A DNA stretch of 64,000 nt from assembly GCA_029582265.1 (NCBI GenBank), contig CM055827.1, positions 1,508,574-1,572,573 of the forward strand, read 5' to 3'. Below are positions 38,680-49,803 of the stretch, one piece after another. A program made the translations under genes and the position numbers. Each line of letters opens with the position of its first letter. The first letter of the stretch is position 1. The stretch comes from Zoroaster sp. YZ-2022 (Eukaryota; Echinodermata; Asteroidea; Forcipulatida; Zoroasteridae). The notes under the pieces were generated by a model, which worked only from the letters and a program-made list of their open reading frames with translations, searched no databases and had not been told where the DNA came from.

Positions 38680-41600
38680 CTGAAAGATAAATCAATCCTT
38701 ATATTAATTACAATTAATAATTGTAAAGTGATGTTTTACTCAAGTTTGAGCTTAAGTCAATAGTGGGCTCACTCCACCTTCAGTCAAAAGTAACTTTTTA
38801 ATCCTAATACCTTAGGGCGTCCAAATTTGTTGTTCTTTGAAAAATGGGGTGTCCAAATTTTTAATTTCCAATACTGTTGCATGCATTTTACAAATAAAAC
38901 AGGGTGTCCATTTATCAAACAGGAAGTCCAAAACACACTTAATTGCTGGCTAACACTATGCCTGATAAGGTTTATAGAATTCTATATTTGTCCTTCCTAT
39001 AAGCACATTTATTGCATAGTTTCCAATGGTGTCTATTTTATGTGAGGGGGGCACTAATGAGTGTAATTATATTGCAGGATGGGTTGGATGTGAAGAAAAG
39101 GAGAATGGTTGTTATACGGTTTGTAAAACTTTCCCTTGATCCTTGTGTTTGGTTCCATTCTAGGTCTGTCTTTAGTCGTCCATCCAGTCATAAACCACCA
39201 AAACATCTAAAGTCTTGCAAAAATCCAATAGAATATAAACTAACCCAAATATAAAAAAATTAAGGGAACTGGATCAGTAGACAACACAAGATTGACAGCT
39301 TGGACGAAATGCAACCTTACTTTGAAATTTACATATTGTTGACATGTTCCTTGTATCCTTTACAATTAATCTTGTCTTACTCTGTTCCAATACAGCAAGT
39401 CAGTGTAGTGATTTCAATTAAGGGTTGGAATCATTAGATTCATAACCCAGTGCTAGTCATCATCCTTGCGTTCATATTGAGATGTTCACAGGGTACCAAG
39501 ATTGGCCTACATTCATGCTCTTACCTTCCACTACTATCCCGTCATCGTCTTCATCATCAAGATCATCATCTTCATCCAACTCACCATCAGGGTTAAAATC
39601 TTCCTCATCCTCTTCATCATCCTGAAATTTTGTAACAAGATTATTTTACAAATTGTTTTTCAAAAGCAAAAAACCCTGACCAATATAGAAAAATATTAAA
39701 ATACAACAATAAAATCTTGAAAGAAAAATTATCTGAGGCTTTGAAAGTTAAAAATCCTAACAACTTTTACAATCAAAATGAATCAGAAATAGTGTAATTG
39801 TGGCACGGTGTACACAAAGCTATCCCTGGTACAACTAATCCAAAAGTTAGTTCTATGATCCGAGACAGATTTGGTTACATTCATTCTTAACCAAGCTTCT
39901 AAGCTCACAAACGATCTCTACGTGGATTTGTATTGTTACATGCCAGGCAATTCAGAATGGTACTTGCCATAAGACACATCTCAGTGCTTCATGAAATAGG
40001 ATTTGTATAAAAAAAAAGACCAGGGATTCTGAACTACGACTCTTAAACTGAAACTCGAATGACTTGGCCCTGTCCCATGAAATTGAAATAATGTTTGTAG
40101 CAATCCGTTATCCCAATACAGCAAGTCAGTTTAGTGATTTCAATTAAGAGTTGGAATCATCAGATTCATAACCCAGTGCTAGTCATCATCCTTGCATATT
40201 AGGGCTAGAACTTTAGACCGCAAGACAAGTGACTCAAAATCTTTACTACACCAAAAACTTGTCACTAACTCATGACTATTTCTGGAACAGTTTTCAGCCC
40301 CCTTATAATCAGTCACCTTTCTTTTTCAACATGGAAAACTACAAAATTACTTTCTAAAAAAGTAACTTTCGTGCACTTTGCTTTCACCGAATTCATTTGT
40401 GGAAAACCCAAGTGAATCGCCAAATTCTACCATGACTTAATTGTTTGATCTTTGTGCTTTTATTTTAGAGTAAATGGGGGAAATTGTCTTTAGAGACTTG
40501 TGTCAGTACAATTCCTCTGTAAATAAAGTTAAAAAATTTTCTTCTCAGAAGTATGCCAACTTTGTGAGCTGAAATACTCATATATTGGTTTGGACATATT
40601 TCATGATCTACATGAAGTATACATCCACAAATAAAGACCTTTTGCTGAAGAAGTTTGGGAGCTTTAAATTAAAATTTCTATTAACAGGTTAAACTGAATA
40701 CGATAAATTGTATCTTTCTTTTCCTACATACCACAAGGTCAGATTTTTGGAGGTAGTCAAGTCCGACCTCTGACCCACTGTCACTTTCTCCATCGTCTAC
40801 TTTTCCTCCTGTTGCATCTTCAGCTTCTTCATCATCATCGTCATCGTCATCGTCATCATCGTCGTCGTCGTCGTCGTCATCGTCGTCATCATCATCACTG
40901 ACGTCAACGTTAGCATCATCTTCATCATCTAGTTGAAAATATAAAAGTTTTTCATACATTAACCATGTGATTTGACAAAAGTAAAAAATCCTGGAAAATG
41001 GGTAGCAGGCCTGGGTCTCCCTTTGGTCTTGAGGACAAAGCCCCCTGAACCTCCTGGATGTTTAATTTTGGAGTGTTTACATCCCCACAAACAAGAAACT
41101 AGAGGTTTGGACACAATACAGGCTACTTCTTTCTTTCCTTGGTGGCTACTTTTCTTCTTTCTAGAAAATTTTGGGGCAAAGAGAGATTTGTAAAAAGTCG
41201 TAAAAAGTCTTGAAAAGTCCTAAAAGTTTAGAAATAAATCATAAATCTATGCTAAGAAAATGTTCATCACAATAGATTCTCACAGTTTTGAGTAAAGGTA
41301 AGTTAAGTTTCACATGTTTTTATGTTTTACAAAAAGTTACCAGACATACAATTTCGATATTCTCTAAGATGAAAGCACTTCCAACAAAATAATTTCTCAG
41401 GATGAGTGTACTTGTGCCAACTTTACACTAAGCAAGTTTTGAATAATAATTTGTCAATTTGATAACCTGGTAATTTAATTACCAAAGTTGTACCTTCCCT
41501 TTCAGCTTGTCTCACTATGTCAGAATACAGCAAGTCAGTGTAGTGATTTCAATTAAGAGTTGGAATCATCAGATTCATAACCCAGTGCTAGTCATCATCC

Positions 41601-49803: not shown

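Follow-up and report, generated by a model that had tools for sequence, protein, structure and literature searches.

A box C/D snoRNA with a SNORD88-like 28S guide, very probably cis-duplicated through the introns of a sea-star ANP32 gene

All seven introns of an ANP32 gene in the sea-star DNA analysed here, a stretch of 64 kb to which we refer as the window, contain a single copy of an element of about 75 nt. What this element is, which nucleotide it might guide, and how the same sequence came to occupy every intron of one protein-coding gene are the questions that the locus raises.

The exon-intron structure of the host gene was rebuilt from GT..AG introns and a reading frame that splices to 323 aa; the gene lies on the minus strand and extends from start to stop codon over 38612..49803. 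There are eight exons (from high to low coordinates 49732-49803, 45600-45749, 44877-44996, 43763-43931, 42613-42711, 40732-40928, 39525-39621 and 38612-38679), and all seven introns begin with GT and end with AG. The 323-aa protein has a leucine-rich N-terminal part and a very acidic tail, and its residues 1-167 match an ANP32A chain of the PDB (E = 6.8e-57). Two sea-star ANP32 sequences topped a protein search in which 7984 candidates were scored (E = 1.5e-139 and 1.6e-118), followed by amphioxus (E = 2.3e-69). The Acanthaster protein, which holds one of the two leading E values, is 75% identical over 98% of the query, and that of Patiria miniata is 91% identical over 48% of it. Introns 7 and 5 of the gene also carry an inverted dispersed repeat (38813-38933 against 42221-42342, 73-85% complementary) that is unrelated to the element described below.

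The copies of the element, 75-77 nt in length, lie at 46215..46289 (intron 1), 45294..45368 (intron 2), 44042..44118 (intron 3), 43260..43334 (intron 4), 41530..41604 (intron 5), 40121..40195 (intron 6) and 39395..39469 (intron 7), each on the minus strand, which is the sense strand of the host. An earlier reading of this DNA, made from its letters alone (hereafter the sequence-only reading), had given these seven positions and the arrangement of one sense copy per intron; all seven positions proved correct, and the arrangement holds in seven introns of seven. It had further stated that the element occurs nowhere else in the window. A covariance model built from the copies bears this out: it necessarily recovers the seven from which it was made (all at E = 3.4e-25 or better), and the next matches in the window are only two and are weak (E = 0.53 and 0.83), with no convincing eighth copy. 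With up to three mismatches allowed, the first 33 nt of the element match seven times in the window, against none in 100 shuffles.

Read on the minus strand, the intron-1 copy has the order GCAAG-G-ATGATGA(C)-CT-AGCACTGGG-TT-ATGA(D')-AT-CTGATGA(C')-...-GAAATCAC-TACA-CTGA(D)-CTTGC, in which the C box occupies 46277-46283, the guide AGCACTGGG 46266-46274, D' 46260-46263, C' 46251-46257, the putative accessory arm GAAATCAC 46228-46235 and the D box 46220-46223. Internal C' and D' boxes are therefore present, with an antisense stretch beside D'; the latter is degenerate, reading ATGA and not CTGA, and lies 2 nt upstream of C'. A strict C/D scan of both strands of the 64 kb (RTGATGA, CTGA 35-100 nt further on and a 5-bp Watson-Crick stem) returned six sites, all of them copies of the element, against a mean of 0.07 and a maximum of 1 in 30 Markov-1 simulations. 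The proposed box C/D snoRNA layout is thus well supported although, because the seven copies are homologous, their architecture has to be taken as one observation.

Stem and boxes had been claimed for every copy. The closing stem GCAAG/CTTGC is indeed found in all seven, whereas six copies keep an intact C box (ATGATGA) and D box (CTGA). The C'-like motif CTGATGA is likewise present in six, and reads CTAATGA in the intron-7 copy with its intact C and D boxes. The combination of RUGAUGA, CUGA and closing stem that defines box C/D membership is accordingly seen in six of the seven copies, the intron-3 copy being the exception. Copy-specific bases are the D-adjacent T of intron 4, an A in intron 6 and the C' change of intron 7, and the two nucleotides beside D vary between copies.

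In intron 3 the C box reads ATGATTA and the D box ATGA, preceded by a 2-nt insertion. This copy escapes the strict scan, and no match to Rfam clan CL00071, which is discussed below, is listed for it. The G lost from its C box belongs to the sheared G-A core of the k-turn; we therefore regard the copy as dead or weak and probably inactive. With these boxes lost, the array is best described as six intact copies and a decayed one, and not as seven equal members.

Comparison of the copies with their surroundings gives some indication of how the array arose. Intron 3 was excluded here on account of its 2-nt insertion. The six remaining copies, all intact, are 97.8% alike over 75 nt, while their flanks 26-75 nt away are 28% alike on the 5' side and 34% on the 3' side. 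Within the nearest 25 nt, introns 1, 2 and 4 are 64-84% alike and, flanks included, have 133-156 nt in common pairwise; for the other pairs the mean similarity is 33% (5' side) and 54% (3' side). Short segments, flanks included, were thus probably copied between introns at different times, and the core has remained constant in copies whose flanks diverged. This constancy is accounted for by selection acting on every copy, or else by gene conversion confined to the core, and the presence of a single sense copy in each intron fits the processing of one snoRNA per intron.

The same comparison bears on how many copies work. Only one or a few may be functional, the others being recent passive duplicates that have yet to decay, a reading we consider possible though unlikely. 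The loss of the C and D boxes in intron 3 speaks for it, as does the youthful appearance of the copies in introns 1, 2 and 4, which look like the latest duplicates because their flanks are still alike. Introns 5, 6 and 7, on the other hand, have flanks near background beyond 25 nt and have nonetheless kept boxes and guide, as expected under selection on each copy; core-limited gene conversion would give an equal picture.

All copies lie 110-715 nt from the 3' splice site, a distance that differs from the roughly 70 nt of vertebrate C/D snoRNAs. An external stem outside GCAAG/CTTGC could help copies placed in this way. Such a stem is predicted for the intron-1 copy with 20-nt flanks (46195..46309, minus strand), whose fold reaches -30.9 kcal/mol (z = -2.3, a value attained by 3 of 200 shuffles), and also around the other copies, most weakly in intron 7. 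It beats shuffles in five of the seven (fractions 0.01-0.04), the fraction being 0.11 in intron 6 and 0.55 in intron 7; the external stem of the decayed intron-3 copy ranks among the better ones. In a permutation control in which flanks were swapped between copies, the fractions of 0.11 and 0.09 were not significant; the argument was therefore dropped, and the external stem is given no weight here.

For the family assignment, the window was searched with Rfam, where nothing reached a gathering score. Below that threshold, six of the seven copies, exactly the intact ones, are matched by models of clan CL00071 at 18.1-18.8 bits (E = 4.5-9.4): SNORD88 in introns 1 (18.5 bits), 4 (18.8 bits, with alignment), 5 (18.3 bits) and 6 (18.6 bits), snoR118 in intron 2 (18.5 bits) and snR76 in intron 7 (18.1 bits, with alignment), against gathering scores of 46 bits for SNORD88, 55 for snR76 and 44 for snoR118. 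TtnuCD21 (24.5 bits), SNORD113 (20.9), snoZ266 (20.3) and SNORD107 (18.9) equal or exceed the 18.8 bits of SNORD88. As these C/D families are unrelated, the covariance score is indecisive, and it is the guide that decides the family. TtnuCD21, SNORD113, SNORD107 and further families with hits below threshold were rejected: judged by eye, the alignments shown match the boxes and some adjoining letters, which in TtnuCD21 include some next to D' and D, whereas AGCACUGGG is not matched.

The guide CUAGCACUGGG before D' aligns without gaps to the SNORD88 model (RF00604) directly after the C box, its first two letters being weakly conserved in that model; AUGAUGACUAGCACUGGGUUAUGA of the element stands opposite AUGAUGUcuAGCACUGGGCUCUGA of the SNORD88 consensus. 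Yeast snR76 (RF01209), which reads uaGCACUGGG at that position, has UAGCACUGGG in common with the element. The guide is unchanged in all seven copies, and AGCACUGGG, directly upstream of D', is complementary to 28S UGCCCAGUGCU, as is characteristic of the CL00071 guide. An antisense oligonucleotide published for human SNORD88 (PMC10911272) is complementary to TGATGTCCAGCACTGGGCTC, which equals the guide of the element. The sequence-only reading had called for a covariance check and had counted the lack of any C/D model hit against itself. At gathering thresholds there is indeed no such hit, which we judge to be outweighed by the sub-threshold CL00071 matches at six copies together with the guide. 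As the gathering score is missed, our claim is limited to the same guide function, which the element appears to share with CL00071, and to likely homology; it is not an Rfam-qualified member.

Human SNORD88 copies share a host, C19orf48. The element resembles SNORD88A/B/C (HBII-180; RF00604, clan CL00071) in its C box, guide CUAGCACUGGG, D' and 28S target, and differs in the D' sequence ATGA, the D-side arm, the ANP32 host, the number of seven copies and a score far below the gathering threshold. Several copies of SNORD88 are described in humans too (PMC5597630, PMC10911272).

The guide was compared with 28S rRNA from two sources. All seven copies form nine Watson-Crick pairs and one G-U with GCCCAGUGCU in a large-subunit rRNA piece found on a viral contig (L001), and the six intact copies do likewise with the 28S of the genome itself. 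Pairing thus comprises ten pairs at D'+2..+11, the G-U included. The site has the sequence UGAuUuCUGCCCAGUGCUCUGAA in the Rfam consensus for eukaryotic LSU rRNA and GCAATGTGATTTCTGCCCAGTGCTCTGAATG in the own-genome 28S; the genome gave 14 LSU matches, eight of them with loci, and TTTCTGCCCAGTGCTCTGAATG is present in seven of those eight. On the scanned part of 28S, the target UGCCCAGUGCU is that with most Watson-Crick pairs for the six intact copies. Three other 28S matches of the D' guide reach 11 pairs when G-U and one mismatch are allowed, but only 7-8 of these are Watson-Crick.

The D+5 rule locates the nucleotide methylated by a C/D snoRNA, and the predicted methylated base is accordingly the third C of UGCCC. 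In sea-star 28S, A residues lie 17 and 23 nt past this C and likewise past the second C, so that the spacing agrees with that of the known site but alone cannot decide between the two. In human 28S, SNORD88 guides Cm3701(3680), with Am3718 and Am3724 following 17 and 23 nt further on (PMC5597630), and in yeast 25S snR76 guides Cm2197, 23 nt before Am2220 and listed at the E site (PMC8307265). Together these data point to the predicted site being equal to the SNORD88-methylated human Cm3680/3701 and yeast Cm2197. A chicken guide for 28S-C3190 has likewise been listed with snR76 and HBII-180a/b/c as its functional homologues (PMC2653536), and depletion of SNORD88A/B/C lowered proliferation in human fibroblasts (PMC10911272).

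The rRNA sources themselves merit a brief comment. L001 is an IMG/VR viral contig that opens with a eukaryotic 28S piece (positions 1-188, RF02543) and appears protein-coding by eye in its remainder, which suggests a chimeric assembly; scans of viral contigs found neither further rRNA nor the element. The three own-genome 28S copies that were printed (L009, L010 and L012) all end at GAGTAACTATGACTCT(C), which we take to be the target site of the R2 retrotransposon, and reverse-transcriptase-like sequence is seen by eye downstream of L010.

A second stretch of the element also matches 28S. The D-side arm GAAAUCAC is invariant in all seven copies and forms eight Watson-Crick pairs with 28S GUGAUUUC, which precedes the D' target by one nucleotide, such that the two arms could bind 18 of 19 successive 28S nucleotides. 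When the intron-1 element was shuffled 4000 times, an adjacent double match of this kind (two runs of at least eight) arose twice on a 128-nt fragment of L001, which had been chosen for the site. Because the arm begins no closer to box D than D+5, and introns 1, 4 and 6 have different nucleotides beside that box, we infer that it probably provides accessory pairing and is not a second methylation guide. A scan of the 5' part of 28S, 5.8S and the 3' end of 18S (stretch of at least 10, at most one mismatch) found no canonical D-box guide target for the six intact copies.

Notwithstanding the agreement with SNORD88, the element could be a C/D snoRNA that is orphan or has another target, be it an snRNA, an mRNA or another rRNA site, the 28S match being incidental. 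Matches of 9-10 bp to rRNA are in themselves no rarity, a run of at least nine arising in 120 of 4000 shuffles on the 128-nt fragment alone; the three other 28S stretches with 11 pairs (G-U and one mismatch allowed) would suit such a reading, and the target scan was confined to 5.8S and to parts of the two large rRNAs, namely 28S without its 3' third and the 3' end of 18S. We nevertheless hold an incidental match to be improbable: the guide matches SNORD88 in both position and sequence, the D+5 nucleotide falls on a C of the known site, and the guide is identical in all seven copies.

Least probable of all is a mobile origin. A DNA search of the whole assembly with one copy (1,001,958,528 bases in 616 contigs, with only the best candidates scored and very common words skipped) gave seven matches at E ≤ 0.001, every one in the ANP32 gene. 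The many outside copies of a dispersed genome-wide transposon, which the sequence-only reading had named as the finding that would overturn it, did not materialise. Placed at random, seven copies would fall one to an intron with a probability of 0.0016 (introns weighted by length) or 0.006 (equal weights), and all on one strand with a probability of 0.016. A snoRNA-derived retroposon or other transposon landing in these introns would account for the unrelated intron positions and the short flanks to which sharing is confined in most pairs, but it sits very poorly with a confined, all-sense, one-per-intron distribution, with the absence by eye of an A-rich tail and with the 133-156 nt that introns 1, 2 and 4 share, flanks included, from which it follows that more than the mature snoRNA was copied.

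We therefore return to the array, whose six intact copies are very probably functional intron-encoded box C/D snoRNAs of the CL00071 kind that guide 28S and were cis-duplicated within one host. In such a scheme, each ANP32 intron would be transcribed with its host, spliced and debranched, then trimmed by exonucleases to the snoRNP assembled on the C/D k-turn. The D' guide AGCACUGGGU would pair with 28S GCCCAGUGCU and fibrillarin would methylate the third C of UGCCC, while the D-side arm GAAAUCAC may add accessory pairing to the same 28S stretch, one nucleotide upstream. The array itself would have formed by cis-duplication of one snoRNA with short flanks, intron to intron, and with one copy per intron the yield could be about six per pre-mRNA. 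The arrangement has the hallmarks of cis-duplication, namely near-identical snoRNAs in sense orientation in several introns of one gene.

Repetition of one snoRNA within a host has precedents, U17 being repeated in the introns of Xenopus RPS8. GAS5 and UHG, like ANP32, carry one snoRNA per successive intron, but theirs are mostly different snoRNAs in a non-coding host, whereas ANP32 is protein-coding and repeats the same one. The suggestion that such an arrangement in a protein-coding host was undescribed is too strong, since a chicken catalogue documents U14 in HSPA8 introns 5, 6 and 8, an HBII-108 counterpart in GNL3 introns 5, 7 and 9, HBII-251 in PUM1 introns 9, 12 and 21, U15 in RPS3 introns 4, 5 and 6, U18 in RPL4 introns 2, 5 and 6, and an HBII-99 counterpart in introns 1, 2, 3 and 4 of a host for which the only name is that of an EST, BU281079 (PMC2653536). 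That work terms repeats within one host intragenic or cis-duplication, and describes a GAS5-like host as well (PMC2653536). The chicken examples resemble the ANP32 array in placing one snoRNA in several introns of one host; in the rows compared they hold 2-4 copies each, and none of these is stated to have every intron filled, as all seven are in ANP32 (PMC2653536). In sponge ribosomal-protein genes, snoRNA duplicates occupy neighbouring introns, with two copies and a ribosomal-protein host (PMC3412847). The ANP32 array is thus a known kind of arrangement and not a new mechanism, notable for filling every intron and for its host.

We found no account of ANP32 as a snoRNA host among the matches listed from the open-licence literature, most of them judged by their listing alone; one snoRNA paper names ANP32B only in connection with a 3' UTR fragment. 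Likewise, no sea-star snoRNA catalogue appeared by title among the open-licence matches listed. A 2011 study noted that no public snoRNA data existed for sea star (PMC3247247), and for a sea-urchin genome automated annotation with snoscan gave 24,875 snoRNA predictions (PMC11310861).

In this context, the locus assigns a guide and a target to a sea-star snoRNA and presents an unusually complete cis-duplication, with all seven introns occupied, six copies intact and one decayed. It also offers a natural test of the way in which the number of copies in a host transcript sets snoRNA dose, and of the birth and death of snoRNA copies. More speculatively, and in our view rather doubtfully, sea-star ANP32 might have become a dedicated amplifier of one rRNA methylation guide, selected for dosage, with the snoRNA acting as a two-armed clamp. 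Since that clamp would bind 18 of 19 successive 28S nucleotides, it may even chaperone folding of the E-site region. Were this so, the output of a single 28S mark would be tied to the expression of ANP32, a chromatin and growth regulator.

Elsewhere in the window, long minisatellite arrays with units of 54/162, 30 and 81 nt occupy 15301-18544, 20541-21471 and 25800-27565, respectively, and the long open frames within them are probably repeat products. Two further segments are probable exons of neighbouring genes, one at 62196-62543 on the minus strand for a methyltransferase-domain protein and one at 22833-24008 on the plus strand for a protein with a WD40_4 match.
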